Assembly: GCF_965363235.1 (NCBI RefSeq)
Contig: NC_134848.1
Span: forward strand, 62,644,181-62,708,180
From: Mytilus galloprovincialis
Lineage: Eukaryota > Mollusca > Bivalvia > Mytilida > Mytilidae
DNA: 64,000 bases
Direction of reading: 5' to 3'
Both the position numbers and the translations under genes were made by a program. Position 1 is the first letter of the stretch, and every line of letters begins with the position of its first letter. The notes beneath the pieces were generated by a model. The model was given only the letters and a program-made list of their open reading frames with translations, searched no databases and was not told the origin of the DNA. Below are positions 21,801 through 64,000 of this stretch, in pieces.

Positions 21801-24800
21801 ACCCCCAAATAGCATTAAGAAAAAAAAAAAGAACTCGCATTCGGCGATGTCATAAATACGTTCTAGTGATATAACGAACATTACAAATAACGCTTTTTTG
21901 TAAGCGTGACGAGTGAAAGTCAAGTTATTAAGCGTAAACACGAGAAACGAATGCGGGCTGTACACATGAAATAATAAGCGTTTTCATTACAATGATCAAC
22001 TGATCATAAGCGGGATACGGGAGTCTGTCAAAACAACTAGCAGGGTCAGGTATATGACCCCTCCCCCAAATGAAACCTCCTATGTAGTAAAGTCTGATTT
22101 CGATATAATCCATTTATTCAGTACATACAAAAGTGATATGATAGCCCAATTTCAAATTCAAGGAAATACGGTGAAAAGAAATACCAAACCTACTTAGTTT
22201 TCTTTGTGGTGTATTGTTTGTTTACGGCTTAATACGTGATGTTTCCTAAAAGATACTGAAGAAGATGTACTGTGAGGACTTTGGTAATAAGGCCACTATA
22301 TATGTACCACCAAAGGCAAAAATACAACAAAAACAATGATATTTGGCTCTTTCTTCCATTGACCATGGTGTTGTCTTTTCTAATTATCATTTATGATAAC
22401 CCCTTAGTATAGTTTGCTTATCTATAAAGAGTGCACACAACAATTTTTTTATATATAATTACCTGACTTAGATTTAGTTAGCTTCGGAATAAATGATTTT
22501 CTCCTCTTCTTAAGTTTTGTACTTTCTTCAGGTACTAATTCTTTTATCCCAGATTGGGTGGACGAACGTCTTAACGACTTCGAATTGTCAAAATGTTCTC
22601 CGTCATCAACAATAAGCACATTGCCATTTTGATAAGACGTGTCTTCATTAAGTGATATTTGTCGACTAGGAAAACTCATTGATCGTTTAGTAATTGGTCT
22701 ACTTTCAGAAATGGCATTATGAAGTCCTATACCTGTATCTTTACCTGCTGTAAACATGTTTGATGACAATTTATTTGACGTATCTGGACCTGTTGGAATT
22801 TCTTCTACGTCATCAAAAACATTGACTAACGAAGCAGACGATACAATATGAACAATTTCCTCGGAGATGCTGTGACACTTTTTCCTACCATTTGGAAGTA
22901 TATTTTTTGCTTTTTGAACATTTATTTCAAGGTCTGATTCCTCGTCAATTCTTGAAAAAGTTTGCGTTTGCGCAGACGACATAATTGGAAGAGAATTCTC
23001 TCTTTTCATGACTGCCTTTTTTACTGCACGTATAGGAATTTTCGTTACTCTAGGAAGTGTTGAAACTGAATCATTACTATTTAATGAATTATCATTTATT
23101 TCACTCTCACTTGCTCTACGATTTGGTTTAACATTTTGTGCAGCGTCATGAGGATCATACCACGATAATCCAGCTACTTGCGTGTTGGATCGCATGAGCA
23201 GCTTCCGCTTCCGCTTAGTTGCAGCATCCTCTTCACCTGCATCAGAGTTTACACGATTGAGAACAGCTGTAGATGTGAAGGATTGGGAACTCGCAGATTT
23301 TCCAAGCTTTCTTCTATCATTTGTATGAAGGTCTGTAGCTTCCGTATTATTTATTATAATATCATTTGCACTATGACAGTTATGGTTTGTATTGGTTTCG
23401 ATGTGATTGATTTCATTTATTTGCAACGTATGCACTGATGATTTTCTTTCTAGCATATTGTTAGAATATCTTTTTAAGCTATTTTCATTGCACAATCTTG
23501 CTGGAATACTCTTTGAACGATTTATAGATGCATTTATCGGATGGTCCTCATTCTCGCTAATATTATGTAAAGCACTAAATAAAGCAGGGTTTAACATTAC
23601 CGTTTTGTCTTTCTCGCCCCGAGATTTCGACTTTTTGCCTTTACCAAAGGACTCGTTATTATCTGTGGTTCGTTTATGTGACTTTTCGGTTTTTGCAGAT
23701 GCTGTAACGGATTCATCTGGACTAGAAATTATTGCCACTGTTGTTACCATGGCTACGTTTTTATCATCTTCAATAGTTGACTCTCTTCTTGAGCCTACGT
23801 CAAATTTTGGTCGTTGTGAACTATTTAAAGAAGAATCTAATCCGTAAAACTCATGACCACTTACAATTTCATCTCCGTCATCGTTTTCAAAGACAGAATT
23901 ATCATCACCACTGTAGCGAGCGCGCCTTATAGCACGTTGTATTTCCTGTCGGTCAAAATCTGATAACGACTCCATAAAAGCATCGCTAAATGTAATTTCG
24001 TCCTGTTCAACATGGTCCAAATTATAATCACGTACAATCCACGGAATTCTAACGAGATCTACCAACCACCCGACGCCAAAACAACCTAATGTAAATAGAT
24101 ACAAAAACCCTGCTTTATATCGTCGGAGGTAAAAATGATGTCCTCCCAATATTCCAAACCATATCCAAATCAGGTACACATCGTCTGCGTATATTTTGTT
24201 TAGATTAACTCCAACTTTCCATTGTTTCCGCCTGTGAACAATGGCGGAAATTCTAAACAAATCAAATAGCCACCAAATTCCCAAACCTCCTAATGTGAAC
24301 GTGTATGACAATCCCCATAAAATTCTCCCACTGTAATACTGATGAGCACCGAGAATTCCGAAGGGCGATGCAGCAATTAAGTATGTTTTCAGAATTTCTA
24401 GATCAGTTGAGAATTTTTCTTTTGTGTTGCTTTGTTCTACTAAAGATGGCATGAAAAACCCATCCAGAACCCAGCCTATACCGTACACTCCAAATGTTAA
24501 AAGATATAGCAATGCTAACGAGAAGTTCCTCAGGTAAAAGTGATGCCAACCTAAAAATGTAAAAAAGTTTCAAAATTATCTTGTTGGGAAAATAAGATCT
24601 GGTACCGTTCCGGAGCACCTGAGATTACCCCGTTTTTCATTGGGTTCGTGTAGCGGAGTGTTTAGTTTTATATGCTGTGTTTTGTGTACTGTTGTTTGTG
24701 TTTTGGTCTCAAGTTTTTTGTCATGGTGTTTTAGTTATGTTCGACCAATGAGTTTGAATACCATGGCATGTGCCGTCTTACGTGTAATCATAGACCCCTA

Positions 24801-25718
24801 ATATCTTCATATGAGACCAAACGATTTTAACTATGTACTTGCATTCTTATATTTCCACCGACCTTTAACCATTTTAACTATGTGACAAATTGGCCTTAGT
24901 TTGCTTTACGTCCAGTGATGAGTATCTTATGCATATCAAAGACGAACACCGTTCTGTATTTTTTTGTATGTACATTCATTTTGAACAATTTGTAAATAAA
25001 CATTATAACAGCTCTAAAAGGTAAGATGTACAAAGCTCCTATAGATGTAATTTACAGCATTTGATTTGTTTCTATATTTTAAACTATACAATACGAGGGT
25101 CTTGATGGCGATTTACAGAATACAGAATAAAAGGGCAAAACAGAGACTAAATGGCAACAACAAAATAAAGATTAAAGAAAATATAATCAAAACACTACGA
25201 AAGAATGAAAAAGAACAGGGTTCTGAAATAAAGAAAAGAGAACTGAGAAAAAAAGAAAGGATAAACATGGTCTTATATCATACAGAGACGTATACCCCTT
25301 TTCACACCCTCATGTTATGCTACACCTTGAAGTACTTGCCTATTATCCCGAAAGGAAACCAAACAAGATACGAATCCAACACTGTCTTCTCCGTCTTATA
25401 CTTATCATCATCACACGCTTCATTCTCATCCTCGACCAAAGAGCGTATTCGGAACAAGTCTATTATCCACCCTACTCCAAAGATCCCGAACGTCAACAGA
25501 TACACAACTCCCATAAACCATCGGTTTAGATAAAAATGATGCGCTCCGAATGGACCTAAGAAAATGGCTAATAAGTATGCTGTCTTGACCGACTTCTGTT
25601 TATGACTTTTTAGTTTGTTTAATCCTTTTTCCACATTGAACATAAATCCAAACTTAGGTCTCGGAAATTTGATACCATATGTCTTCTTTATTTGTTTCGA
25701 CATGATTTCAGTTTGCAT
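18857..25718 (-). CDS. Four-TM2-domain membrane protein with long disordered tail
   Basis: Coding exons in gene order are 25718-25340, 24550-22463 and 18963-18857, giving 857 residues with matching phases. The exon 1 donor is a GC site in strong context (ATAG|GCAAGT). It joins FGIIG to WHHFYLRN, restoring a canonical TM2 motif. TM2 domains lie at about residues 46-96, 115-165, 182-231 and 251-300. Each has paired hydrophobic helices around G.HHFYL (the third has GAHQYYSG) and ...GVGW..DL.RI. Residues 301-857 are Ser/Asn/Lys-rich with no domain recognised. The last exon adds DANTPVMKLD...GFLTIK; reading through its donor instead ends in GNYI and a stop at 22449. Human TM2D proteins have one TM2 domain, while DNAJC22 has several TM2-like helices plus a J domain; no J domain is visible here. 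An in-frame second ATG lies at 25703. Exon 3 is the least certain part. Function unknown. Confidence 0.83.
19310..20810. mobile_element. 1.5-kb CAG-type TIR transposon in TM2-gene intron 2
   Basis: It starts CAGGGGCGTAAC and ends with the complement GCTACGCCCCTG. The flanks GCAAT (19305-19309) and GCAGT (20811-20815) are an imperfect 5-bp duplication. No intact transposase frame is present, and G-run/C-run stretches sit near 19420-19440. Confidence 0.7.
20811..21475. other. TM2-gene intron 2, no element resolved
   Basis: AT-rich intron sequence with several A/T homopolymer runs. Nothing else recognised. Confidence 0.4.
21476..21674. mobile_element. Mariner-like MITE, TA target site
   Basis: TA + CTGTAAATTCAGAAATTATT... 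at the left is mirrored by ...CATTTCTGAATTTACAG + TA at the right, TIR about 23 bp, 195 bp between the TA pairs. ATTGCGAT occurs as short internal repeats. It lies in TM2-gene intron 2. Confidence 0.8.
21675..22448. other. TM2-gene intron 2, remaining part
   Basis: No conserved coding sequence or clear repeat boundary seen. Confidence 0.35.
24606..25060. repeat. Dispersed repeat fragment in TM2-gene intron 1
   Basis: The GTTCCGGAGCACCTGAGATT start and the following T/G-rich sequence look like a common molluscan retroelement tail (recalled, untested). The rest of the intron shows nothing else. Confidence 0.45.
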
Positions 25719-27017
25719 TTATGCAAAATCAAATTTAACCTTAATTTCTAACTAGTTAAATCATCCCTTGTCTTTTTATTTTATTATTCTGTCTTAAGCT
25801 TACTCCAACATAACTATGTTTAGCATTCCTATTTAGCAAATGAAAATTACGATTGTTTAAATTAGTTCAGGATTTAGTAATTTAAAGTGGTCGTGGTCTA
25901 TCATTTATACGCTTCACAAAATCAATTTCTTTCCGAGGTGGTTAAAATGTAACCTATTGTATAAACGGATTATTTAGATTAATACAGAGATTATAAATTC
26001 ACTTATAGAATAGGTCACTGTTAAATATTTGATATTATTGAAATTATTATTTAGACTATGATATTGAAAAATCGTTCACCTGAAACTTTAATTGTTTTGA
26101 AAATAAACAATACACGAAACTAAATTAAAAAGTCTGATGTGCAAATTTCAGCACTAATTTTTTATCTGTGAAATTTTACATGTTCAATAAAAATTACTTA
26201 AATTAGAAATTACTATCAATTTAATCAGTATTACATATTTTCGTTATTTTGAAAATCCTTCATTACTGAGATAAGTATATATTGAACCTATTGATTTTTT
26301 TCTATTTTCCACTGTTATTCTTTAAATTTGTGCACCGTCTTTTTTTTTTTTTTAATTATTTTTGAAAAGTAGAAAGAAAAAAAGCAGTAACGTGACATGT
26401 CGTTAACTCTGATACTGAGTTTGTGATATACCATGCGTAGACGAAATGCCACCAGCTGTAGCGTCGACTTGGTGGTTATAAACAAGGCAAAAACCGGACA
26501 AATAACACTTAATATACATTAATAAAGAAAAGATCATATGAAAACATAAAAATTAAATTTCTTCAAATCCAGGATTTGCAAATCCTTGTTCAAATGAATA
26601 CAAATTAATCTTATTTCCACTACAAATCGATAGAGACAAAACACATTTTAACATATAAACGAATTATTTCATAATTATGATAGTTTGATTCTTGTTCGAT
26701 TAGTATATACATTTGACTATTAAACATCGACTATGATATGAAACATGTTGAAGTGAGACAGCATTCACAACTGCAAATTGATATGCAGAGAACATTTCTT
26801 TACATACGTTAGTTACCAATCCTTGGTCACAATTGCACATTGTTATGGAGAGGAAATTTCTTTACATAGGTCAGTTACAAATCCATTAATTTTCTCATTT
26901 TTGACCAGTACTTATTTATTTAGTAAACCAAAATATGTTTTTAAACAAGTAGTAGTACCAGAGCAAGATGAAGCAAAAATGGATGCTTTAATTTAATCGA
27001 AGTAATCAAAGCTGTCT
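25719..27017. repeat. Upstream segment of duplicated block A
   Basis: No gene. From about 26130 the sequence is paralogous to 45118-45988, and from about 26395 also to 52090-52740 (shared marker CTCTGATACTGA.TTTGTGA, then GTCAGTTACAAATCCAT). It marks the left limit of the tandem block. Confidence 0.6.
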
Positions 27018-28285: not shown

Positions 28286-28372
28286 TGTTTCAGTGGACAA
28301 ACAATGCAGATAAATGTTTCAGTGGACAAACAATGCAGATAAATGTTTCAGTGGTCAAACAATGCAGATAGA
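28286..28372. repeat. 29-bp minisatellite, 3 units
   Basis: Three units of TGTTTCAGTGGACAAACAAT followed by GCAGATAAA. The same unit forms about 41 copies at 49101-50299. Confidence 0.9.
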
Positions 28373-28538
28373 TGTTTAGATATGCAATTGTTTACAACTA
28401 CCCTAAGTTAGGAATCTGATGTTAAGTAGTTGTCGTTTGTTGATGTGGTTTATAAATGTTTCTTGTGTCTTGTTTTTTTTATATAGATTAGACCGTTGGT
28501 TTTCTCGTTTGAATAGTTTTACACTAGTTATTTTGTGT
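28373..28538. repeat. Retroelement-tail fragment before fucosyltransferase A
   Basis: TAGGAATCTGATGTTAAGTA and TTAGACCGTTGGTTTTCTCG match 9230-9350 and 50330-50455. Confidence 0.6.
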
Positions 28539-28697
28539 ATGCTTTCTTTTTCAGTGTAATCAATTGTATGCTTTCTTTTTCAGTGTTATTAATTGTGTGC
28601 TTTCTTTTTCAGTGCTATCAATTGTGTGTTTTTTTTCAGTGTTATTAATTGTGAGCTTTCTTTTTCAGTGTTATCAATTGTGTGCTATCTTTTTCAG
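28539..28697 (+). repeat. 29-bp splice-acceptor-like tandem repeat, about 6 units
   Basis: The unit is GTGTGCTTTCTTTTTCAGTG then TTATCAATT. Each unit has a pyrimidine tract ending in CAG. The last unit (CAG ends 28697) leads straight into the fucosyltransferase open frame, whose in-frame upstream sequence has a TGA at 28652 and no ATG, so a spliced upstream exon is implied. Confidence 0.8.
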
Positions 28698-29734
28698 TGA
28701 TATTAATTGCATCCATACTACATGTACTAGTTGTACATCTATCCCTCTCTGTCATCTTTAAATCGATTAATACAAAATGCAGGAAATTTCAACACGGGAA
28801 CAATTTTACAAAAAACTGTCGAGAAATACCGGCTGAACATGTGCATGACATAAATACTACCACAAATGGTTTCAGTAACAAAGAAAATAAATACACGAGT
28901 AATATTTTTTATTTGTGTCCTGTTTTTAAAGCAAGGTTTGGAAATAACTTATTCCAATTTGCATCCCATTTTGGTATTTCGAGATCAAAGAATATGCACT
29001 TAATAGTAGGTGAAAATACAGAAATAAATCGTGTATTTAACATTGACGTTGATGTACGACCAGACGTGAAAATATGCCAGACATTTAATTACCGGCATGA
29101 AAAACGGTCGTCTGCTTACGACGATAGTCTTTTAAGGTTTAACAATTCTCAAAATGTCAGATTAGTTCGTTCTCTACAATCCTGGAAATATTTTTATGAA
29201 TTTAGGAAAGAACTAAGGAAACAATTAACTTTTCGACGCCATATTCAAATCGAGGCTGAACACAATATTATGGAAATTCTGCAAAAGTTCAACGAAGAAT
29301 CCAGAAAAGAGGTAACTTTAGTGGGCATACATATTCGACTAGGAGATATGTGCAGTAATAGTTATTTAAAAAAAGTTGGTTTTAATATTGCAACACCAGA
29401 GTATTTGTCCAAATCTGTCAACTATTTTCTATCAAAATATAGAAATGTTCTTTTTTTAGTAACTTCACAAAACATGACTTGGGCTAAAGCTAACATGCCC
29501 CGTCACGTGAAAAACAAGGTTGAATATATTGATAGTCCGAAATGGGAGATAATAGTCGCAACCTTATCACTCTGTGATCATACAATAACAACAGTTGGTA
29601 GCTTCAGCTGGTGGATTGGGTGGTTAACTGGAGGGGAAGTGACGTATTATAAATGGCCAGTAAGAGACGGATCAATACTCAGGAAACAATTTAACTATTC
29701 TGACTACTTCTATCCAGGATGGATCGGATTTTGA
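28698..29734 (+). CDS. GT11 alpha-1,2-fucosyltransferase-like, copy A
   Basis: The main coding exon gives about 345 residues and ends at a stop at 29732-29734. A hydrophobic anchor comes first (ILIASILHVLVVHLSLSVIF), then a stem with NFT, NTT sequons, as in type II Golgi enzymes. Catalytic motifs follow in GT11 order: ARFGNNLFQFA (family GRxGNQxFQ), VGIHIRLGD (family H.R.GD, nucleotide-sugar site), VTSQNMTWAK and CDHTITTVGSFSWWIGWLTG (family CDH...G.FG.W...L.GG). The enzyme would transfer fucose from GDP-fucose onto beta-galactose in alpha-1,2 linkage; acceptor preference is unknown. There is no in-frame ATG before the catalytic part, so the start lies in an unseen upstream exon joined at the CAG ending 28697 or at another repeat acceptor. 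Copies B and C lie at 50569 and 56004. Confidence 0.85.
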
Positions 29735-33297: not shown

Positions 33298-34309
33298 TTA
33301 CAAATTTAATACACTAGATACAATAATATATTCAAAACATATCTTTAATGAATAACGAAATACCATTGTTTGCAAAACATGAGTTTGAACGGACGAGTAC
33401 CAAGTGGCAAATACTTTCACAACACATTAATTGACTTGAGGTTTTTAATATCATGTCGTTTCGGTGAATCTTCATTGAAGGACAATATATACCTCACGTA
33501 TTTGTTTATTCATTGTGATAACCTAGACGGGTAGTACTCATGGTAATGCAGATTTTCAAATCTTTTCGATACTACATTATAGTGAGATTTCTATTTTCAT
33601 AATACATTTCTATGGGAAGCAGTTAACAACCCAAATATAGGATTGATTTATCTTCCGGAAATTGAAACGGACACAAAACAAAATATCTGTATCAACAAAT
33701 TGACTATTTATAAGAATAATAAGATGTGGTATGATTACTAATGAGACAACCCTACACAGGTGACAAAACGACATAAAAGTTAACAATTATGGGTCATAAT
33801 ATGGCCTTAGATAATGAGTAAAACGAAAAGTAAGGACTAATCATCTATTTATTATACTTTAGCAAACATATCTTAAATTTCAATATATTAGTAGATAATA
33901 TCATGGGATATTTTATTTTCTCAAATGCATATACATATTTTACCATGAAGTGATCGAAGAAAGAAGTAAAATGTCGAAAAAAATCCAATGAAAATTTAGC
34001 AAATGGCAAAATCAAAAGCTCAAAAATATCAAACGAATTGATAACAACTGTCATATTCCTAGTTTGGTACATGCATTTTCTTAAGTAAAAAAAATAAAAA
34101 TATAAAATAAAACAAAAAATAAAAATATAGAATGAAACTATGACAGGCTTTTAGATTAACAGGAGGGGAGTATAAGAACTTATTGTCCAAATATTGAATC
34201 ACAACAAGTATATATATAAGAAATAAATAAATATAATGCGAAGATTATATAATATACATGAATATATATTTCTGAAACATGGAAACTACATGTATACGAA
34301 AAAAAATCG
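33298..34309. other. Duplicated intergenic DNA (A/C), no gene
   Basis: Closely matches 60016-61000. Bases 33725-33765 are the complement of the common tail ending (ATGTGGTATGATTACTAATG). The short reverse frame at 33845-34072 is shared by both blocks but has no domain or coding signature. Confidence 0.5.
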
Positions 34310-35075
34310 TGAGTGTTCAGCGGAACCAAATATCTCGTCTACTTTTGCTGTTAATCGCAGGCTCAACAAAAATGAGGGGAAAAGGCAATAAAAATACTCC
34401 TCTTATAATACTATTTTTTTTTATTGTTAGAAGCTTCTGTCCAAGTTTGGTGAAAATGCAGGATAGTTTATGAATCTAATACATGTTTTAAAAACGTTAA
34501 CTACAGACTGTATGTAATATTTACTTGAAGAAAAACTAGGTCCATTTATAAGTAAAATACGGATAAACAGGTACAAAATTTTAACTAAGTTTCCTTCTAG
34601 ATGCTAGCCTTTGATCATAAACAAGCTTCAGTCAAAGTTTGCTAAAAACCAGGATAGTATAAAAAAAGTTTATAAAATTTTTTATTTTTTTTACCATATA
34701 GTGAATGTATTGTATCCTGTCAGAAAAACTATGTCCATTTGTAAGTAAAATACAGAAAAATGGATTTGTTTTTTACAAAATTTACTTCTGGATACTATCT
34801 TATTATAAAAAACAAGCTTCTGTCCATTTTTTGTACACATCGAGGATAGTTCAAGAAAGTTATAAAAATTTTAAAACTTTACCACAAAGTGTACCAAGGT
34901 TCTGTCCAAGTTTGGAAGAAATCCAGAATAATTTAAGAAAGTTATTAGAATTTCAAATACTTTAACCAGAGTGAATATTTGTGGACGCCACCGACGACGA
35001 CGACGACGACGCCAATGGAAAGTATGATCGCTATATCTCGCTTTTTCGACTAAAGTCGAAGGCTCGACAATGAAT
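34310..35075 (-). repeat. Inverse copy of hairpin-headed element, block A
   Basis: Reverse-complement of the 32437-33297 element: GTAGACGAGAT end, units with AAGCTTCTGTCCAAGTTTGG, a CGACGACGAC run (about 34990-35012) and the TTTTCGACTAAAGTCGAA hairpin at about 35042-35058. Together with the left copy it makes a large imperfect inverted repeat with a loop of about 1 kb. Confidence 0.8.
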
Positions 35076-35240
35076 GACATTGAATTATAGTTTGAAACAA
35101 TACGCTTAAGTACTAATATAAATACAAGATCAAACTACGAGGTAACCATAATTGTACAATAAAAGAATACACCCTAGCTGATAGTTCAAACTCAAAGTCT
35201 TCTGTCTAACTAATGAATTTTCCTTTGATTCACGATACGA

Positions 35241-38200
35241 TTAATTTAGATCAAACTTTGCTGATATCGCCTTCCCAGAATTTCTATCGTGAGCTATGAG
35301 GTCAATTTCAGTTTTTCCAAGGACAAATTCTACGTCTACCCATCGCCTATACTCACAAGTGTCTGAAAAAGTGATTGTCGGTGTACATAGCAAAGAACAC
35401 GTATCATCGTCAACATATCCTGGTGTTGTCTCATCAGATACATACACCATTATCTCCATTTTGTCCTGATGTTTGAAAGGTGTAAAGAAAGATTTCTTAA
35501 CTAACATTCCTGCTTCAACGCTTTCGTCTTTTCCGACGATAAGAGAAAATATATTGTCACACCTTTCCTCCCCTTCCATAACTGCATAGTGTTTTCTGTC
35601 ATATTTTTTTTCATGCCAAGGGACATTCGTTTTGACACCATAACTGCATCGCATGATGCGTGACTGTATATACTCTGGATCATGGCCGAATAAAACGGCC
35701 CCTTTAAGCACTGCTAACCCAGCTTCTTCTGGAATTATTATTTTCTTCTCCGGAAATGCTTGACGAACTGCGTCGTGCATTAGTTGACAATCTGAGAAAC
35801 CTCCTACCATTAGCAAATGCGTCACGTCCTTCAATGATTTATCTTGAAAAATCTCTTTCATAAGTGATATAACACTATCAACGGAAGGCATAAACATCTT
35901 ATTGAAAACCTCAACATTAATACGAATTTTATCTTGTGCTAGTTTTATGTCTTTTGAATATGACGAATCAGCCAACAGAGACTCTAAATTCTTGTTGTGA
36001 ACTTTCTGACATGATGTTTCAAGCGCAACAACCGGGATTGTCATAGTTACTTTAGTTTTTGTTTCAGTTTCAACCGTTCTTTTCACGGATTCAAATTCTC
36101 TTATTAGATCTATATATGCTAGAGGGCTCTCCTTTTTTAATGAATCCATTGTGGTCTTTCCGATAATTCCTTCGAAAAGCTTAAAAAACCTTCTATCAAT
36201 CGATGTTCCACCGCAATCATTTCCGATAGCTCTATGTTTTTCTTTCAAGTGACCATTTGCAGCTTTCTCGTGAACAGTTATGTCTGCAGTGCCGCCTGTA
36301 AAAATATGAACATAATGATTAATGAATTAAAAAAGGAAATAGCTTAAATGGAAACAGACGATATATTCACATTTTTTGGAAAATGACTGATTGTTAAAAG
36401 TCATATATATCTGACATTTATCTAAACCAATGTCTTAATCAAAGGAAAAGAAAACATGATAAAGTATGTCTTAACGTTACTTTAATCTAAATGAAAGGCA
36501 GTGCAAATACGAAAGATACCAAAAGGAACAGTTCAACTAATAAGTTTAAAGCGAACTGACAATACCATCACAAAACAACAATCCCGAAAAAGTGACAAAA
36601 GATAAACACAGTATATATCACATAATATAGAAACCTGACGACGAGTAACACGAATCCCATCAAAAACAAGGGTTGATCTCAGATGCTCCGGAAAGAAAAG
36701 CAGATAATGCTTCACGGGTTGCATCAGCCGCTATATTATATGATCATATCTTTATATAAGTATACAAACATAACCAGTTTTACAATTTAGGATTGTCTTT
36801 TTGCAGGTAAACAAATCTTTATGACAATACTAAGAGGGCTTATTAGATGAATAAAGAAATTTACCTTCAACATAAATGTAACTTATTGTTCTACCTAGTG
36901 TAATTCAAAACGTAAAAATTTAAGTTATTCAGCATTCATTCTTATGTAGCAACCTTGGAGAATATAGATAAAAAAGAAACTCATGCAATTTTATATAAAT
37001 TGCAATCACCATCAATTCTTTCTTCATTGATAGTAATCAGGAAGTCATTTGAACATTCAGCACTTCACAATATTCAAATTTGTAAGAGAATGATATTGAC
37101 TTAGGTTTATGATTTTTAAATGTGTTGACAATAGATAGAAGCGGATATTTCTTTTAATGTGTGAACAAAACTTTACCTCCAAGATCAACCACCATGAATT
37201 TTGTCCCTTCGGCTGTCATTGTGAATCCTGGGTCAGATCCTTTTAATTTTTCAGTTGATAAAAACTGACAGAAAATGGATGCTGCCTCTGGTTCAAGTGC
37301 AAGTATCAAGTTGTTTGTGGGAATCCCAGCCTTAAAGAAGGTTATTTTAAAACAAATATTAGTTTTAAGATTTGAACAGTTATTGCACTATCATAATCAA
37401 TTGGCAATAAGGAGACCATACGTAATAGAGGTAAGACACACTAAGGGTGAATACGAAAGGAAATACAAACAATTGCAACAATCAGCCTAAATAGTTTGAA
37501 TGTCTCCTGTACAGAATTATATGTAGTCCTTAATGTATAATACTTTCACATCAAAATTACCCAGGCTAGTTGAGTGTTGCACGCTTACAATTTTGATTAA
37601 CCCCTCCTCGTTCCTTATGTGAGTTTCGCAAGTCATTATCATGTATTAAGTGGTTGTATTTGATTGCTGTACGTCGTATTTGTTATAGCTATCAGTCGTA
37701 TTTGGTTTAAGTATAGATGCTTAATATCATATCAAATCGGGACTTTTATAGCGTTCTAGATGCGGTCATATATTTTCATTGGTTTTGTTCTAGTTTGTCT
37801 TAAATGGTTTATATTGTTTTTGATATTGCTGAAAAATAATTGTTCTCTGTAAGCCTACCGTGTAAATACAAGATCATCAACATGATCAACAAAGAAATGT
37901 AATCTACTCTATATGTGCGTGTCTAAAATCATGAACCTGTTATCCAGTGTTTGTTATTGGTTGGTGTCTGAAATACTTGTTTATTGTATATAACTGTAAT
38001 AAAAGACAACACGTTTAAATTGTTTCACAAGCTTATTTTACCAGGTTCAACCCATCATTTTTTTCGTAAAATGTCCTGCGCCAAGTAAGAAATATGTCAG
38101 TTGTTACAAGTAGTTTGTTTCTATTTATGTTACATTGGGGCATTTATCAAATAGTTCGTTCCTATGTGTGTTGGCGTTTGTTTTTGTTGTACTTCGGTGT

Positions 38201-45117: not shown

Positions 45118-45988
45118 TTTTTAATCTGTGAAATTCTACATGTACAATAAAAATTACTTTAATAAGAAATTACTATCAATTTTATCAGTATTATATATTT
45201 TCGTTATTTTGCAAATCCTTCATTTCTTGAATAAGTATACATCGGCACCATTGATTTTTTATATTTCCCACTGTTATTCTTTAAACTTGTGCACTCTTTT
45301 TTTTTAATTTGTTTTTTAAAACTATTTTTGAATAATTAGAAAGAACAAATACAGTAACGTGACATATCGTTCACTCTGATACTGAGGCTGTGATGTACCA
45401 TGCTTAGACGAAATGTCACTAGCTGTGGCATCGACCTGGTGGTTATGAACAAGGCAAAAACCGGACAAATAACACTTATACATCGATAAAGAAAAGATCA
45501 TATGAAAACATAAAAATTAAATTTTTTTTCAAATCAAGGATTTGCAAATCCTTGTTCAAATAAATACAAATTAATCTTATTTGCATTACAAATCGATAGA
45601 AACAAAACACATTTTAACATATAAACGAAATATTTCATAATTATGATAGTTTGATTCTTGTTCGATAAGTATATACTTTTGACTAAATATTAAACATCGA
45701 CTATGATATGTAACATGTTGAAGTGAGACAGCATGCACAACTGCAAATTGATATGCAGAAGACATTTCTTTACATACGTTAGTTACCAATCCTTAGTCAC
45801 AATTCGACATTGTTATGGAGAGGAAATTTCTTTACATAGGTCAGTTACAAATCCATTAATTTTCTCATTTTTTTACCAGTACTTCTTTATTTAGTAAACC
45901 AAAATATGTTTAGACACAAGTAGTAGTACCAGAACAAGATGAAGCAAAAATGGATGCTTTAGTTTAATCGAAGTTATCAAAGCTGTCT
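45118..45988. repeat. Upstream segment of duplicated block B
   Basis: Paralogous to 26150-27017, including the CTCTGATACTGAGGCTGTGA marker and AGTAGTAGTACCAGAACAAG. No gene. Confidence 0.65.
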
Positions 45989-49100: not shown

Positions 49101-50299
49101 TGTTTCAGTGGACAAACAATGCAGATAAATGTTTCAGTGGACAAACAATGCAGATAAATGTTTCAGTGGACAATCAATTCAGATAAATGTTTCAGTGGAC
49201 AAACAATTCAGATAAATGTTTCAGTGGACTAACAATGCAGAAAAATTGTTTCAGTGGACAAACAATGCAGATAAATGTTTCAGTGGACAAACAATTCAGA
49301 TAAATGTTTCAGTGGACAAATAATTCAGATAAATATGTTTCAGTGGACAAACAATTCAGATAAATGTTTCAGTGGACAAACAATGCAGATAAATGTTTCA
49401 GCGGACTAACAATGCAGATAAATGCTTCAGTGGACAAAAAATTCAGATAAATATGTTTCAGTGGACAAACAATTCAGATAAATGTTTCAGTGGACAAACA
49501 ATGCAGATAAATGTTTCAGTGGACAAACAATGCAGATAAATGTTTCCGTGGACAAACAATTCAGATAAATGTTTCAGTGGACAAACAATTCAGATAAATG
49601 TTTCAGTGGACAAACAATGCAGATAAATGTTTCAGTGGACAAACAATTCAGATAAATGTTTCAGTGGACAAACAATTCAGATAAATGTTTCAGTGGACAC
49701 ACAATGCAGATAAATGTTTCAGTGGACAAACAATGCAGATAAATGTTTCAGTGGACAAATAATTCAGATAAATATGTTTCAGTGGACAAACAATTCAGAT
49801 AAATGTTTCAGTGGACAAACAATGCAGATAAATGTTTCAGTGGACAAACAATGCAGATAAATGTTTCCGTGGACAAACAATGCAGATAAATGTTTCAGTG
49901 GACAAACAATTCAGATAAATGTTTTAGTGGACAAACAATTCAGATAAATGTTTCAGTGGACAAACAATTCAGATAAATGTTTCAGTGGACAAACAATGCA
50001 GATAAATGTTTCAGTGGACAAACAATGCAGATAAATGTTTCAGTGGACAAATAATTCAGATAAATATGTTTCAGTGGACAAACAATTCAGATAAATGTTT
50101 CAGTGGACAAACAATGCAGATAAATGTTTCAGTGGACAAACAATGCAGATAAATGTTTCCGTGGACAAACAATGCAGATAAATGTTTCAGTGGACAAACA
50201 ATTCAGATAAATGTTTTAGTGGACAAACAATTCAGATAAATGTTTCAGTGGACAAACAATTCAGATAAATGTTTCAGTGGACAAACAATTCAGATAAAT
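49101..50299. repeat. 29-bp minisatellite, about 41 units
   Basis: Units are TGTTTCAGTGGACAAACAAT + GCAGATAAA or + TCAGATAAA, contiguous with no spacers. Variants (CCGTGG; an extra AT giving AATATGTTTC) recur with a spacing near 292 bp, for example 49758/50050 and 49863/50155, showing a higher-order repeat of about ten units. The paralogous site in block A has three units. Confidence 0.92.
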
Positions 50300-50465
50300 G
50301 TTAAGATATGCAAGCAATTGTTTACATTTACCCTAAGTTAGGAATCCAATGTTGAGTAGTTGTCGTCTGTTGGTGTGGTTTATAAGTGTGTCTTGTATCT
50401 TGTTTTTTTAATATAGATTATACCGTTGGTTTTCTCGTTTGAATAGTTTTACACTAGTAATTTTT
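50300..50465. repeat. Retroelement-tail fragment before fucosyltransferase B
   Basis: Matches 28373-28538 (TAGGAATCCAATGTTGAGTA; TATACCGTTGGTTTTCTCG). Confidence 0.6.
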
Positions 50466-50568
50466 TGTATGCTTTCTTTTTCAGTGTTATTTATTGTGTT
50501 CTTTCTTTTTCAGTGCTATTACTTCTGTGCTTTTTTCAGTGTTAACAATTGTGTGCTTTTTTTTTCAG
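50466..50568 (+). repeat. 29-bp splice-acceptor-like repeat, about 4 units, block B
   Basis: The same unit as 28539-28697. An ATG at 50469 is in frame with the downstream fucosyltransferase and reads through the units as one hydrophobic stretch, unlike copy A. Confidence 0.8.
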
Positions 50569-51614
50569 TGATATTAATTGTATCTATACTAGTACATGTA
50601 CTAGTTGTACATCTATCCTTTTCTTTCATCTTTAAATCGAATAATACAAAATGCAGGGAATTTCAACACTGGAACAATTTTACAAAAAGCTGTCGGGAAA
50701 TACCGGTTGAATATGCGCATTACATAAATACTACCACAAATAGTTTCAGTAACAAAGAAAATAAATCCACGAGTAATATTTTTTATTTGTGTCCTGTTTT
50801 TAAAGCAAGGTTTGGAAATAACTTATTCCAGTTTGCATCCCATTTTGGTGTTTCGAGATCAAAGAATATGCGATTAATAGTAGGTGAAAATACAGAAATT
50901 AATCGTGTGTTTAACATTGACGTTGATGTACGACCAGACGTTAATATATGTCAGACATTTAATTACCGGCAGGAAAAACAGTCGTCTGCTTACGACGATA
51001 GTCTTTTAAGGTTTAACAATTCTCAAAATGTCAGATTAGTTCGTTCTCTTCAGTCCTGGAAATATTTTTATGAATTTAGGAAAGAACTAAGGAAACAATT
51101 AACTTTTCGACGCCACATTCAAATCGAGGCTGAACACAATATTATGCAAATTCTGCAAAAGTTCAACGAATAATCCAGAAAAATGGTAACTTTAGTGGGC
51201 ATACATATTCGACTAGGAGATATATTCAGTAATAGTTATTTAAAAAAAGTTGGTTTTAATATTGCAACACCAGAGTATTTGTCCAAATCTGTCAACTATT
51301 TTCTATCAAAATATAGAAATGTTCTTTTTGTAGTAACTTCACAAAACATAACTTGGGCTAAAGCTAATATGCCTCGTCACGTGAAAAACAAGGTTGAATA
51401 TATTGATAGTCCAAAATGGGAGGAAATAGTCGCAACCTTATCACTATGTGATCATACAATAACAACAGTTGGTAGCTTCAGCTGGTGGATTGGATGGTTG
51501 ACTGGAGGGGAAGTGACGTATTATAAATGGCCAGTAAGAGACCGCTCAGTACTCAGGAAACAATTTAGCGAAGACTATTCTGACTATTTCTATCCAGGAT
51601 GGATCGGATTTTGA
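50569..51614 (+). pseudogene. GT11 fucosyltransferase-like, copy B, nonsense mutation
   Basis: Homologous over its full length to copy A, with ARFGNNLFQFA, VGIHIRLGD and CDHTITTVGSFSWW motifs and the GWIGF end. The frame is closed by TAA at 51171-51173, where copies A and C have GAA (glutamate). The rest stays in the same frame to the normal stop. The break separates the acceptor-side N-terminal part from the H.R.GD nucleotide-sugar motif. The mutation may be real or a sequence error. If real, the copy is inactive unless read through. Confidence 0.85.
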
Positions 51615-52740
51615 ATGTTCTTTTTCTATAGTAAGTTAACAGGGAATCTCTATAGATATAGGAAAATGTGGTATGAGTGTCAATGAGACAATGTACATAC
51701 CTTTTTGTGGGAACGAAATAATAACGATTTGTTCTACAGTATGTATTTCTATTCGTGCTCAATTATCTCCCTCTTAAAGAGTGGAATATAAAACGATTGA
51801 ACCATTCTGAAAACTATGACACTTCAATGGTGGTTTATGCTATGAGTATGACAATAAAATGTATGAAGCCTGCTTTAACAAAAGTGGTACATAAGAAAAC
51901 ACTCTCGAAATGTTAAGATGATTTGTTTTTATCGCTATTTTTTTTAAATAGAAATACCAATCTATACATGCATGCTTATACATATATTTTGTATTATTTT
52001 GCTATAAATGTTAAATGGAGAAGACTTCATAAGTCTGTTTGACTTGTTTCGTATCAATTTGTACTTAAACAAATAAAATATGTTTAAACCTAAACGAAAG
52101 CAGTACATGTCGTTAACTCTGATACTGACTTTGTGATATACCATCGGAGACAAAACGGCCACCAGCTGTGGCATCGACATGGAGTCTATAAACATGGCCA
52201 AAACCAGACAAATACTAATTATACATCGATATAGAAAAGATCATATGAAAACATAAAAATTAAAATTCTTGAAATCATGATTTGCAAATTTTTGTTCAAA
52301 TGAATACAAATTAATCTTATTTGCATTATAAATCGACAGAGATAAAACACATTTCAATATATTTACGAATTATTTCATAATTATGATAGTTTGATTTTTG
52401 ATCGATTAGTATATAATACATTTGACTAATTAAACGTCGACTATGACATGTGACATGTTGAAGTATGCCAGCATTGTCACAACTGCAAATTGATATGAAG
52501 AGGAAATGTCTTTCCGTACGTTTGTTACCAATCCATGGTCACAATTGCAAATTGATATGACGAGGAAACACCTTTACATAGGTCAGTTACAAATCCATAT
52601 TTTTTTTCATTTTTGACCAGTCCTTCTTTATTTAGTTAAACAAGATATATTTTAAAAAAAAGGTAATGGAGGTAGTAGTACCAGAGCAAAATGATGCAAA
52701 CATGGAGGCTTTTATTTATCCGAAGTAATCAAAGCTGTCT
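51615..52740. other. Junction of blocks B and C, no gene
   Basis: Fucosyltransferase B 3' flank to about 51930, including a short reversed tail piece (AAATGTGGTATGAGTGTCAA). From about 52090 the sequence matches 26395-27017, the start of block C. HSPA12 sequence is absent between them. Confidence 0.5.
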
Positions 52741-54800: not shown

Positions 54801-56003
54801 TTACTAATTGTTTTTAATAGTGTGTTTTCTTTTTCAGTTTTATTAATTGTGAGCGTTCTTTTTCAGTGTTATCGATTGTGTGCTTTCTTTTTCAGTGCTA
54901 TTAATTGTGTCCTTTCTTTTTTTGTGTTATCAATTGTGTGGTTTCTTTTTCAGTCTTATCACTTGTGTGCTTTTCTTCAGCGTTATCAACTGTGTGATTT
55001 CTTTCTCATTGCTAATAATTGTGAGCTTTGTTTCTTTTTAAATCATATCAATTGTGTGCTTTCTTTTTCTGTGTTATTAATTGTGTGCTTTCTTTTTCAG
55101 TGTTATCAATTGTGTGCTTTCTTTTTCAGTGTTATCAATTGTGTGCTTTCTTTTTCAGTGTTATCAATTGTGTGCTTTTTTTCAGCGTTATCAACTGTGT
55201 GATTTCTTTTTCATTGCTAATAATTGTGAGTTTTTTTCTCTTTCAATCATATCAATTGTCTGCTTTCTTTTTCAGTGTTATTAATTGTGTGTTTCCTTTT
55301 TCAGATTTATTAATTGTGAGCTTTCTTTTTCAGTGTTATCAATTTTGTGCTTTCCTTTTCAGTGTTATCAATTGTGAGCTCTCTTTTTCAGTCTTACAAA
55401 TAGTGTGTTTTCTTTTTCAGTTTTATTAATTGTGAGCGTTCTTTTTCAGTGTTATCGATTGTGTGCTTTCTTTTTCAGTGCTATTAATTGTGTCCTTTCT
55501 TTTTTTGTGTTATCAATTGTGTGGTTTCTTTTTCAGTCTTATCACTTGTGTGCTTTTCTTCAGCGTTATCAATTGTGTGATTTCTTTCTCATTGCTAATA
55601 ATTGTGAGCTTTGTTTCTTTTTAAATCATATCAATTGTGTGCTTTCTTTTTCAGTGTTATCAATTGTGTGCTTTCTTTTTCAGTGTTATCAATTGTGTGC
55701 TTTCTTTTTCAGTGTTATCAATTGTGTGCTTTTTTTCAGCGTTATCAACTGTGTGATTTCTTTTTCATTGCTAATAATTGTGAGTTTTTTTTCTCTTTCA
55801 ATCATATCAATTGTCTGCTTTCTTTTTCAGTATTATTAATTGTGTGTTTCCTTTTTCAGATTTATTAATTGTGAGCTTTCTTTTTCAGTGTTATCAATTT
55901 TGTGCTTTCCTTTTCAGTGTTATCAATTGTGAGCTCTCTTTTTCAGTCTTACAAATTGTGTGCTTTCTTTTCAGTGTTATCATTTGTGTGCTTTCTTTTT
56001 CAG
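54801..56003 (+). repeat. 29-bp splice-acceptor-like tandem array, about 41 units
   Basis: Unit GTGTGCTTTCTTTTTCAGTG + TTATCAATT, with many units intact to the CAG and some degenerate. A segment of about 583 bp is duplicated (54818 and 55401 begin the same TAGTGTGTTTTCTTTTTCAG run). All three forward frames are open for long stretches and hydrophobic (VLSFSVLSI, CFLFQCYQL, AFFFSVINC), because 29 is not a multiple of 3 and each frame cycles through all readings. The array abuts fucosyltransferase C. Confidence 0.92.
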
Positions 56004-57040
56004 TGATATTAATTACATCTATACTACATGTACTAGTTGTACATCTATCCTTCTCTGTCATCTTTAAATCGAATAATACAAAGTGCAGGATATTTCAACA
56101 CGGGAACAATTTTACAAAAAAATGTCGAGAAATACCGGTAGAACATGCTCATTACATAAATACTACCACAAATAGTTTCAATAACAATGAAAATAAATAC
56201 ACCAGTAATATTTCATATTTGTGTCCTGTTTTTAGATCAAGGTTTGGAAATAACTTATTTCAATTTGCATCCCATTTTGGTGTTTCGAGATCAAAGAATA
56301 TGCGATTAATAGTAGGTGAAAATACAGAAATAAATCGTGTATTTAACATTGACGTTGATGTACGACCAGACGTGAAAATTTGTCAGACATTTAATTACCG
56401 GCATGAAAAACAGTCGTCTGCTTACGACGATAGTCTTTTAAGGTTTAACAATTCTCAAAATGTCAGACTAGTTAGTTGTCTACAGTCCTGGAAATATTTT
56501 TATGAATTTAGGAACGAACTAAGGAAACAACTAACTTTTCGACGCCACATTCAAATCGAGGCTGAACACAATATTAGACAAATAATGCAAAAGATCAACG
56601 AAGAATCCAGAAAAGTAGTAACTTTAGTAGGTGTCCATATTCGACTGGGAGATATATTCATTAGTAGTCATTTAAAACAAAATGGTTTTGTTATAGCAAC
56701 ACCAGAGTATTTATCCAAATCTGTCAACTATTTTCTGTCAAAATATAGAAATGTTCTGTTTGTAGTAACTTCACAAAACATGACTTGGGCTAAAGAGAAC
56801 ATGCCACGTCACGTAAAAAACAAGGTTGAATATATTGATAGTCCGAAGTGGGAGATAATAATCGCAACGTTATCACTCTGTGATCATACAATAACAACAG
56901 TTGGTAGCTTCAGCTGGTGGATTGGATGGTTGACTGGAGGGGAAGTGACGTATTATAAATGGCCAATAAGAGATGGATCAATTCTCAGGAAACAATTTAA
57001 CTATTCTGACTATTTCTATCCAGGATGGATCGGATTTTGA
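56004..57040 (+). CDS. GT11 alpha-1,2-fucosyltransferase-like, copy C
   Basis: An intact frame to the stop at 57038-57040. Organisation is as in copy A: membrane anchor (ILITSILHVLVVHLSFSVIF), stem with sequons, SRFGNNLFQFA, VGVHIRLGD, VTSQNMTWAK, CDHTITTVGSFSWWIGWLTG. It differs from copy A mainly in the stem and around the H.R.GD loop (IFISSHLKQNGF versus MCSNSYLKKVGF), where acceptor contacts could vary. The open frame runs upstream into the repeat array to about 55811 without an ATG, so the true start again needs a spliced exon. Exon start is set at the last repeat CAG. Predicted role: GDP-fucose-dependent fucosylation of galactose ends in the Golgi. Confidence 0.85.
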
Positions 57041-59732: not shown

Positions 59733-61004
59733 GAGCATTGAGGACTCCAAATTCTAAAAGGTTTTGACAAATACGGATTAAGTTATCTATGCCTGGGATA
59801 AGTACAGTTGCTAATGACGTTTTAAAAACAATGATGCTGAAGAAGTATCGATTGTTAGTTTTTGACAACCGCTAATTATAAAGTGTTGAATAATTACTTC
59901 TTTTCATTAGAATTCCAAATCAAATTTTGCAAAATATCCAACATATGGTTTTTATGCAATTTGAATGAGTACTAAATTTTTCATTTTAGGACAACAAAAC
60001 GAAGAAACAGACTCTTTTTAATACACTAAATACATTATATATTCAAAAATTCAAAAAATATCTTTAATGAATAACGAAAAAACCATTGTTTGCAAAACAT
60101 GAGTTTGAACGGACGAGTACCAAGTGGGAGATGCAAATACTTTCACAACACATTAATTGACTCGAGATTTTTAATATCAGGTCGTTTCGGTGAATCTTCA
60201 TTGAAGGACAATATATACCTCGCGTATTTGTTTATTTATTAGGATAAACTTGACAGGTAGTTTTCATGGTAACGCAGGTTTTCAAATGTTTTCGATACTA
60301 CATTATAGTGAGATTTCTATTATCATACTACACTTCTATGAAAAGCAGTTAACAACCCAAATATAGGATTGCAATATCTTCCGAAAATTGATACGGACAC
60401 AACAAAAATATCTGTATCAACATAATGACTATTTATAAGAATAAGAAGATTTGGTATGATTACCAATTAAACAACTATCAACAGGTGACAAAACGACATT
60501 ACAGTTAACAATTATGGGTCATAATATGGCCTTAGATAATGAGTAAAACGAAAAGTAAGGACTAATCATCTATTTATTATACTTTAGCAAACATATCTTA
60601 AATTTCAATATATTAGTAGATAATATCATGGGATATTTTATTTTCTCAAATGCATATACATATTTTACCATGAAGTGATCGAAGAAAGAAGTAAAATGTC
60701 GAAAAAAATCCAATGAAAATTTAGCAAATAGCAAAATCAAAAGCTCAAAAATATCAAACGAATTGATAACAACTGTCATATTTCTAGCTTGGTACATGCA
60801 TTTTCTTAAGTAAAAAAAATAAAAAAATAGAATGAAACTATAACAGCTTTTAGATTAACAGGAGAGGAGTATAAGAACTTATTGTCCAAATATTGAATCA
60901 CAACAAGTATATATATAAGAAATAATTAAATAAAATGCGATGATTATATAATATACATGAATATATATTTCTGAAACATGGAAACTACATGTATACGAAA
61001 AAAA
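59733..61004. other. Duplicated intergenic DNA (C), no gene
   Basis: Matches 32160-32436 and then 33298-34309. The hairpin-headed element found between those in block A is missing at about 60015. Confidence 0.55.
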
Positions 61005-61770
61005 ATCGTGAGTGTTCAGCGGAACCAAATATCTCGTCTACTTTTGCTGTTAATCGCAGGCTCAACAAAAATGAGGGGAAAAGGCAATAAAAATACTCCT
61101 CTTATAATACTATTTTTTTATTGTTAGAAGCTTCTGTCCAAGTTTGGTGAAAATGCAGGATAGTTTATGAATCTAATACATGTTTTAAAAACTTTAACTA
61201 CAGACTGTATGTAATATTTACTTGAAGAAAATCTAGGTCCATTTATAAGTAAAATACGGATAAACAGGTACAGAATTTTAACTAAGTTTCCTTCTAGATG
61301 CTAGCCTTTGATCATAAACAAGCTTCAGTCAAAGTTTGCTAAAAACCAGGATAGAATAAAAAAAGTTTATAAATTTTTTTATTTTTTTTACCATATAGTG
61401 AATGTATTGTATCCTGTCAGAAAAACTATGTCCATTTGTAAGTAAAATACAGAAAAATGGATTTGTTTTTTACAAAATTTACTTCTGGATACTATCTTAT
61501 GATAAAAAACAAGCTTCTGTCCATTTTTTATACACATCCAGGATAGTTCAAGAAAGTTATAAAAATTTTAAAACTTTACCACAGAGTGTACCAAGGTTCT
61601 GTCCAAGTTTGGAAGAAATCCAGAATAATTTAAGAAAGTTTTTAGAATTTCAAATACTTTAACCAGAGTGAATATTTGTGGACGCCACCGACGACGACGA
61701 CGACGACGCCGATGGAAAGTATGATCGCTATATCTCGCTTTTTCGACTAAAGTCGAAGGCTCGACAATGA
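61005..61770 (-). repeat. Inverse hairpin-headed element, block C
   Basis: Nearly identical to 34310-35075, including the CGACGACGAC run (about 61690-61708) and the TTTTCGACTAAAGTCGAA hairpin. Confidence 0.8.
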
Positions 61771-61937
61771 ATGAAACTGAATTATAGTTTGAAACAATAC
61801 ACTTAAGTACTAATATAAATACAAGATCAAACTACGAGGTAACCATAATTGTACAATAAAAGAATACACCCTAGCTGATAGTTCAAACTCAAAGTCTTCT
61901 GTCTAACTAATGAATTTTCCTTTGATTCACGATACGA

Positions 61938-64000
61938 TTAATTTAGATCAAACTTTGCTGATATCGCCTTCCCAGAATTTCTATCGTGAGCTATGAGGTC
62001 AATTTCCGTTTTTCCAAGGACAAATTCTACGTCTACCCATCGCCTATACTCACAAGTGTCTGAAAAAGTGATTGTCGGTGTACATAGCAAAGAACACGTT
62101 TCATCGTCAACATATCCTGGTGTTGTCTCATCAGATACATACACCATTATCTCCATTTTGTCCTGATGTTTGAAAGGTGTAAAGAAAGATTTCTTAACTA
62201 ACATTCCTGCTTCAACGCTTTCGTCTTTTCCGACGATAAGAGAAAATATATTGTCACACCTTTCCTCCCCTTCCATAACTGCATAGTGTTTTCTGTCATA
62301 TTTTTTGTCATGCCAAGGGACATTCGTTTTGACACCATAACTGCATCGCATGATGCGTGACTGTATATACTCTGGATCATGGCCGAATAAAACGGCCCCT
62401 TTAAGCACTGCTAACCCAGCTTCTTCTGGAATTATTATTTTCTTCTCCGGAAATGCTTGGCGAACTGCGTCGTGCATTAGTTGACAATCTGAGAAACCTC
62501 CTACCATTAGCAAATGCGTCACGTCCTTCAATGATTTATCTTGAAAAATCTCTTTCATAAGTGATATAACACTATCAACGGAAGGCATAAACATCTTATT
62601 GAAAACCTCAACATCAATACGAATTTTATCTTGTGCTAGTTTTATGTCTTTTGAATATGACGAATCAGCCAACAGAGACTCTAAATTCTTGTTGTGAACT
62701 TTCTGACATGATGTTTCAAGCGCAACAACCGGGATTGTCATAGTTACTTTAGTTTTTGTTTCAGTTTCAACCGTTCTTTTCACGGATTCAAATTCTCTTA
62801 TTAGATCTATATATGCTAGAGGGCTCTCCTTTTTAATGAATCCATTGTGGTCTTTCCGATAATTTCTTCGAAAAGCTTAAAAAACCTTCTATCAATCGAT
62901 GTTCCACCGCAATCATTTCCGATAGCTCTATGTTTTTCTTTCAAGTGACCATTTGCAGCTTTCTCGTGAACAGTTATGTCTGCAGTGCCGCCTGTAAAAA
63001 ATATGAACATAATGGTTAATGAATTAAAAAAGGAAATAGCTTAAATGGAAACAGACGATATATTCACATTTTTTGGAAAATGACTGATTGTTAAAAGTGA
63101 TATATATCTGACATTTATCTAAACCAATGTCTTAATCAAAGGAAAAGAAAACATGATAAAGTATGTCTTAACGTTACTTTAATCTAAATGAAAGGCAGTG
63201 CAAATACGAAAGATACCAAAAGGAACAGTTCAACTAATAAGTTGAAAGCGAACTGACAATACCATCACAAAACAACAATCCCGAAAAAGTGACAAAAGAT
63301 AAACACAGTATATATCACATAATATAGAAACCTTACGACGAGTAACACGAATCCCATCAAAAACAAGGGTTGATCTCAGATGCTCCGGAAAGAAAAGCAG
63401 ATAATGCTTCACGGGTTGCATCAGCCGCTATATTATATGATCATATCTTTATATAAGTATACAAACATAACCAGTTTTACCATTTAGGATTGTCTTTTTG
63501 CAGGTAAACAAATCTTTATGACAATACTAAGAGGGCTTATTAGATGAATAAAGAAATCTACCTTCAACATAAATGTAACTTATTGTTCTACCTAGTGTAA
63601 TTCAAAACGTAAAACTTTAAGTTATTCAGCATTCATTCTTATGTAGCAACCTTGGAGAATATAGATAAAAAAAGAAACTCATGCAATTTTATATAAATTG
63701 CAATTACCATCAATTCTTTCTTCATTGATAGTAATCACGAAGTCATTTGAACAATCAGCACTTCACAATATTCAAATTCGTAAGAGAATGATATTGACTT
63801 AGGTTTATGATCTTTAAATGTGTTGACAATAGATAGAATCGGATATTTCCTTTAATGTGTGAACAAAACTTTACCTCCAAGATCAACCACCATGAATTTT
63901 GTCCCTTCGGCTGTCATTGTGAATCCTGGGTCAGATCCTTTTAATTTTTCAGTTGATAAAAACTGACAGAAAATGGATGCGGCCTCTGGTTCAAGTGCAA
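61938..64000 (-). pseudogene. HSPA12-like copy C, frameshifted, 5' end outside window
   Basis: Exon 4 equivalent is 62991-61938 and exon 3 equivalent is 63875 to beyond 64000. A run of six T in copy A (36133-36138) is five T here (62830-62834), which shifts the frame in the SLKKESPLAY region. Outside it I see only four residue differences from copy A in exon 4 (G/E, N/D, E/D, D/E). The adenosine motif LLMVGGFSD and phosphate 2 GGTADITVHE are kept. A single homopolymer change could be an assembly error, in which case this is a second functional gene. Exons 1 and 2 would lie beyond the window. Confidence 0.85.

Follow-up and report, generated by a model that had tools for sequence, protein, structure and literature searches.

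The question raised by this locus is what an array of reiterated 3′ splice sites is doing in front of glycosyltransferase genes in a mussel, and whether the choice among its acceptors shapes the enzyme or whether the array is simply carried beside one productive site. The DNA analysed here, referred to as the window, is a stretch of 64,000 nucleotides (contig C11, 62644181-62708180) from the 1.38-Gb genome of Mytilus galloprovincialis. In keeping with a mussel, this genome contains a 770-codon frame that encodes the decapeptide of mussel foot proteins. A first-pass annotation of the window had noticed the array ahead of a fucosyltransferase membrane anchor and had proposed that variable acceptor choice could lengthen the anchor or give out-of-frame products, tuning Golgi retention or expression by repeat number. 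Our data lead to a plainer answer, which we consider likely: the array would be a tolerated, mostly neutral mussel example of the boundary-spanning minisatellites called mirages, with the last acceptor as the productive one, and it is unlikely to be a regulatory device.

The gene cluster and its acceptor arrays

By using the catalytic part of copy C as a whole-genome query, we obtained 50 matches, six of which lie in one cluster at 87% identity or more. Copies A, B and C are in the window, D and E lie about 23 kb and 27 kb beyond C, and F lies about 140 kb beyond C. The glycosyltransferase family 11 (GT11) profile PF01531 matched copies A and C, the two tested, over profile positions 38 to 296 of 298, with scores of 100.7 bits (E 1.2e-28) in A and 112.1 bits (E 4.1e-32) in C against a gathering cut-off of 23.9. 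A search of NCBIfam gave no match, and a search for a solved structure of a relative returned a single chance match (E 0.54). The second exons of the three window copies and the arrays that precede them are as follows.

28525..28697 (start approximate), plus strand: copy A acceptor minisatellite, 6 units, all ending in CAG
28698..29734, plus strand: copy A exon 2, GT11, frame intact
50462..50568 (start approximate), plus strand: copy B acceptor minisatellite, 3 full units and 1 partial unit
50569..51614, plus strand: copy B exon 2, interrupted in the catalytic part by an in-frame stop (51171-51173)
54809..56003, plus strand: copy C acceptor minisatellite, 41 full 29-bp units, last CAG at 56001-56003
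56004..57040, plus strand: copy C exon 2 (rest of the anchor, stem, GT11 catalytic part and stop), frame intact

Copies A, C and E are intact and open over 353 codons. In addition to B, copy D is broken, by a stop in the stem and by a change of its last acceptor from CAG to CGG, and copy F is broken by a frameshift. A seventh place, G (C11 62849436-62849756), holds 10.7 array units and is a truncated copy (locus L036, 6322-6950), in which the array leads into the beginning of exon 2, cut short after a few codons of the catalytic part and followed directly by an exon-1 region like that of C and E. This arrangement looks as if left by unequal exchange between neighbours.

The domain match in A and C and a predicted type-II anchor liken these genes to the α-1,2-fucosyltransferases of GT11. 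They differ in one motif, which reads HIRLGD in five of the six cluster copies and HTRLGD in the sixth, whereas the paralogs L007 and L008 have HVRRGD. The form HxRRxD, which we take to be the donor-binding motif of GT11 α-1,2-fucosyltransferases, was absent from the catalytic part of all six cluster copies (L001 to L006). Given HxRLGD at this site, the enzyme may be altered.

Arrays were called with Tandem Repeats Finder, and the repeat numbers first reported, about 41 before C, 6 before A and 4 before B, were borne out: at period 29 the program gave 41.4 copies at 54809-56014, 6.1 at 28536-28709 and 4.1 at 50465-50581 and, outside the window, 14.4 units before D, 22.4 before E and 5.6 before F. 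The C array scored 1367, whereas across 20 shuffled versions of the window (first-order Markov) the best repeat of period at least 10 scored 72. Each unit comprises 11 exon-like bases followed by 18 bases of intron end, that is, a pyrimidine tract and CAG. As also described at first, the last unit abuts the anchor-coding sequence, its CAG ending at 56003 and exon 2 beginning at 56004. The description of the unit as a pyrimidine tract plus CAG holds for the reiterated acceptor but not for every unit, since in C only 30 of the 41 full units end in CAG and the other 11 have no AG; the corresponding count in E is 17 of 22. The start of exon 2, TGATATTAATT, agrees with the first 11 bases of the unit at 11/11 positions in one unit of copy D, at 10/11 in the frequent variant TGTTATTAATT and at 9/11 in the consensus.

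A genome search with a three-unit query, which skips very common words, found seven candidate places, all in this cluster, and this confinement led us to reject the array as a dispersed satellite. Genome-wide, the word TTTTCAG repeated at three tandem steps is no commoner than its reversed control (831+799 versus 1275+1391 occurrences; the TTTTCAG places among the matches listed are all on C1). Tandem repeats with CAG words are thus common in this genome. What distinguishes the present array from them is its apparent descent from a real acceptor.

Other repeats and reading frames lie around the cluster. A different 29-bp minisatellite occupies the intron of B:

49101..50302, plus strand: 41 units of a minisatellite with the unit TGTTTCAGTGGACAAACAATTCAGATAAA

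It recurs as 3.2 units at 28286-28377, in A, these being its only two places genome-wide; it looks unrelated to the acceptor array, and a single-copy relative of its unit was seen by eye in L036 near 6110. Across C11:62560000-62818000, no other tandem period of at least 10 bp is as common as 29 bp (10 rows of the repeat list), and three unit families in this interval contain TTTCAGTG. A 28-bp array at C11:62642621, whose unit contains TTCTTTCAG, was considered as a second case and set aside: by eye there was one CAG among three units, and no long open frame followed the array. Two 4-kb copies, at 33305-37302 and 60017-64000 of the window, are 96.7% identical. Each carries a long minus-strand frame (361 and 312 codons), and Pfam gave no match to either. 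TM2-domain frames, one with three matched stretches, lie on the minus strand at 22449-24569 and 25320-25718.

The splice junction and its predicted first exon

A pointer to a splice junction comes from distant paralogs outside the cluster. L007 and L008, the two examined of 44 other GT11 matches, lie on contig C9 and show 61% and 60% identity. Ahead of the anchor they read TTTCAG/GT ATA GTG and the cluster reads TTTTTCAG/TG ATA TTA (here and below, a slash outside brackets marks the exon edge). In the cluster and in both paralogs the acceptor is in phase 1, leaving one codon base to an upstream exon, and the acceptor array is absent from L007 and L008. As these two paralogs share the acceptor site and its phase without the array, the acceptor probably predates the array. 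We read the array as a reiterated 3′ splice junction, and in all likelihood an upstream exon exists. Inspection of the frames agrees with the earlier statement that A and C have no in-frame ATG upstream of the catalytic part, and the upstream exon that it called for gains support both from the acceptor and phase common to L007 and L008 and from a phase-matched candidate present in all six cluster copies.

This candidate came from a scan for an ATG, an open frame and a phase-1 donor over 3.3 to 8.5 kb upstream, depending on the copy. One candidate was common to the six copies, M[E/T]RK[F/H/L]LYI/G with the donor ATAG/GTCAG, and it is placed in the window as follows.

26845..26869, plus strand: copy A predicted exon 1, MERKFLYI/G, from the scan
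45815..45839, plus strand: copy B predicted exon 1, MERKFLYI/G, from the scan
52557..52581, plus strand: copy C predicted exon 1, MTRKHLYI/G, donor ATAG/GTCAGT
52472..52598, plus strand: copy C tandem duplication, 62 bp x 2.0, with exon 1 in the second unit

Joining the predicted exon to the last acceptor yields a 353-residue protein from each of A, C and E; its tail is short, and its single hydrophobic run covers 28 residues in C and 33 in A. The predicted intron 1 measures 0.85 to 4.7 kb; intron lengths, predicted proteins and the frame classes and acceptor-frame counts given below refer to the copies other than D. Duplications of 62 bp around exon 1 were found at window positions 26765-26884 and 52472-52598 and in loci L009 (6466-6592) and L010 (478-604), the first unit having a different and weaker-looking donor. 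With exon 1 inside a tandem duplication, both edges of intron 1 are tandemly copied.

The candidate is a good prediction that falls short of proof. Shuffled sequence of 3.3 kb, the length scanned in E, yields a mean of 1.45 phase-1 candidates, which counts against it. Invariant columns make up 25/31 of exon 1 plus donor, 72/100 and 68/100 of the near flanks and 99/200 further down, so that conservation exceeds that of the near flanks only modestly. Comparison with L007 and L008 gave only a 247-column alignment beside exon 2 in about 4.5 kb, and the phase-1 scan of these two paralogs yielded no candidate in common. For C and E the scan also lists an extended version of the shared exon that begins at an ATG further upstream. 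A rival in C (MMQTWRLLF..., MMQTWRLLFIRSNQSCLTAKCIEWV/G) has its donor 185 bases further down (score 6.5 versus 7.3), next to the conserved donor-like GTCGGTAAGG or GTAGGTAACG, which was tried as the end of exon 1. The scan listed this rival in C alone and not in the other five copies, and in A the same frame has a TAA (by eye); we therefore prefer the shared candidate and regard the rival as less probable. Donor and acceptor scores throughout use our own weights, set from the metazoan consensus and not from a trained model.

Probable growth of the array and predicted use of its acceptors

The number of units differs strongly among the paralogs, from 4 to 41, and the C array has a visible history.

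54816..55455, plus strand: first half of the copy C array, near-identical to the second half at 55399-56009 (641 columns, 93.6% with indels)

In a trimmed pair, the C halves agree in 528 of 530 ungapped columns, with 60 gap columns. Against the E array, the first half agrees in 568/579 columns (20 gap columns) and the second in 570/585 (37 gap columns). A unit in the middle of C is composite by eye, joining the start of a late E-type unit to the rest of the first E-type unit, as unequal exchange would leave it. Based on the closer resemblance of the C halves to each other than to E, and on this composite unit, the array of the gene ancestral to both C and E probably numbered about 22 units, and a later doubling in C, after the split from E, added about 20. 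Homogenisation within the array is an alternative cause that could also make the C halves look young.

The genes seem to have remained under protein constraint during this growth. By our own Nei-Gojobori count, exon 2 of C and E differs by 11.5 nonsynonymous changes over 819 sites and 16.5 synonymous changes over 213 sites (dN/dS 0.173), the ratio being 0.305 for A-C and 0.384 for A-E. Changes assigned to branches in the catalytic part (synonymous + nonsynonymous) were 7 + 4 for C, 7 + 5 for E and 14 + 6 for D. The C-E ratio together with these branch counts suggests that C and E were constrained while carrying long arrays. The ratio alone is no proof of present function, as the broken copy D gives 0.10 and 0.11 with C and E. 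Array length also fails to follow gene death: the intact copies A, C and E have 6, 41 and 22 units and the broken copies B, D and F have 4, 14 and 6, so that the longest array stands before an intact gene.

A model that accommodates these data begins with a real junction, consisting of the last part of intron 1 and the initial 11 bases of exon 2, which would have been duplicated in tandem in the ancestor of the mussel GT11 gene cluster. Slippage and unequal exchange would then have lengthened and shortened the array and copied it together with the genes. The N-terminal tail and the first part of the anchor would come from exon 1 and the remainder from exon 2, and splicing of exon 1 to the last acceptor would yield the enzyme. 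The acceptors upstream of it would be leftover copies under no clear selection and, if used, would give mostly frameshifted or stopped products.

The state of the upstream AGs bears directly on this model. Of the 86 full upstream units in the six cluster copies, 67 retain the AG. Mean conservation over these 86 units is 0.890 for the A and G versus 0.889 for the other 27 positions, and over the 51 distinct units 0.892 versus 0.876, a test that is rough because the units share ancestry. Within these limits, the upstream units appear to take no special care of their AG. The pyrimidine tract of the upstream units is better conserved than the exon-like part (0.927 versus 0.858), which could reflect weak selection or just the nature of a T-run.

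Many upstream acceptors score the same as the last one on our simple scale. The choice of a 3′ splice site generally tends to favour nearer sites at equal strength. For these two reasons the upstream acceptors may be heavily used. This leads to the best-supported of the other explanations, that the array is a decoy: its upstream acceptors would draw splicing away from the last one into unproductive messages, and repeat number would set the amount of enzyme without lengthening it. The abundance of CAG-ended units in C and E, many scoring like the last, speaks for such competition, as do the conserved upstream pyrimidine tract and the large recent steps by which repeat number shifts. The 37-bp repeats of human factor VII, with reiterated donors of which only the most upstream is normally used (PMC6627357), offer a parallel. 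However, the upstream AGs show no sign of selective upkeep, and the most units are found in an intact copy, C, while B, D and F are broken with far fewer, and we therefore regard a decoy function as doubtful. A broader version, in which some 26 to 30 near-equal acceptors of C compete, repeat number differs between mussels and enzyme output (in C also anchor length) follows as a fast-mutating control of splicing, strikes us as improbable.

It is very improbable that the whole cluster is decaying and unexpressed, with the array as debris. Three of the six copies are broken (B by nonsense, D by nonsense and its CGG acceptor, F by frameshift), the seventh has a truncated exon 2, and all six have HxRLGD where the two paralogs have HxRRGD. 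Against this, A, C and E are open throughout, and nonsynonymous changes between C and E are outnumbered by synonymous ones despite the far larger number of nonsynonymous sites.

The proposal of a lengthened anchor depends on the frames of the array. We listed each AG in the arrays and checked those above a pyrimidine-score threshold for an in-frame, open join of exon 1 to exon 2. Such upstream acceptors number 0 in A, 0 in E, 0 in F, 2 in C (at -57, adding 19 residues, and at -144, adding 48) and 1 in the broken copy B (at -84, adding 28). Below the threshold, A, E and C each have one in-frame open GAG, at -42, -66 and -219 respectively, with scores of about -1. In-frame lengthening is thus possible in C and broken B and is not a shared property. 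The earlier claim that every forward frame of the array is open does not survive, in that the three frames of 54801-56003 contain 14, 9 and 14 stops (mean of base-shuffled sequence, 16.4), with longest open stretches of 133, 153 and 134 codons; the consensus unit alone is open in all three. The rule that only every third acceptor keeps a given frame, 29 mod 3 being 2, is right for perfect units and fails for real ones, whose lengths vary, and in place of the expected steps of 29 residues C offers scored in-frame steps of +19 and +48. The shorter of these two products would carry a hydrophobic run of 47 residues, and in the longer one overlapping hydrophobic runs would cover residues 8-78. Microexons and recursive splicing that arise from the units, considered by reading, seem unlikely, the AG being followed by TG and not GT.

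Tuning of Golgi retention by anchor length is the least credible of these explanations, because the open in-frame acceptors of C, although they add hydrophobic residues, would cost its products their single ordinary anchor and more probably upset topology than tune it, because A, E and F have none above threshold and the only such acceptor outside C is in a copy broken by an internal stop, and because the stops in the C frames and the decay of the upstream AGs point the same way.

Comparison with known boundary-spanning repeats

Our reading of the array as a passive copy of a real junction finds its closest parallel in amphioxus. Mirages were described there as minisatellite-like tandem copies of an intron-exon boundary in Adh3 and in the globin genes BflGb6 and BflGb9. 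Many units there keep splice signals, array length varies and regular splicing is reported to be undisturbed, with BflGb6 having 6 or 3 units of 150-160 bp and Adh3 units of 10-72 bp (PMC3087553). The mussel units likewise contain intron end, AG and exon start, many with the splice signal kept. Each spans a boundary, with 11 exon-like bases and 18 bases ending in CAG, and the array lies beside an authentic exon boundary, by predicted acceptor use, in the six GT11 copies and G. With these structural features present, we count the mussel array as a probable mirage, a long and multiply copied one. It differs from the amphioxus mirages in its host, in having up to 41 units of 29 bp, in forming seven parallel arrays in one cluster and in being known from DNA alone.

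A literature search, mostly at title level, found no titles on reiterated acceptors in Mytilus. With the mussel case, boundary-spanning minisatellites of the kind described in amphioxus are also seen in a bivalve, and one of them appears to have grown by a single recent doubling. In addition, arrays of 4, 6, 14, 22 and 41 near-equal acceptors, all in the same genome and each ahead of a near-identical exon, form a natural series for the study of 3′ site choice by the spliceosome.

Two human systems are related in part. The internal tandem repeats of segmental duplications (PMC2812944) resemble the mussel arrays in their unit length of about 30 bp, in their occurrence in genes of recent duplication and, for some of them, in lying at an exon-intron edge; they were assessed by way of transcripts, and changes to exons and gain of introns were linked to them. 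Intron 7 of factor VII has a variable number of near-identical 37-bp repeats, the first of which carries the splice site of the exon, with usable sites downstream (PMC6627357). It shares with the mussel locus variable-number repeats that reiterate an exon's splice site, but its repeats carry donors and the exon-adjacent site in use is the most upstream, whereas in the mussel the exon-adjacent site is the most downstream acceptor.
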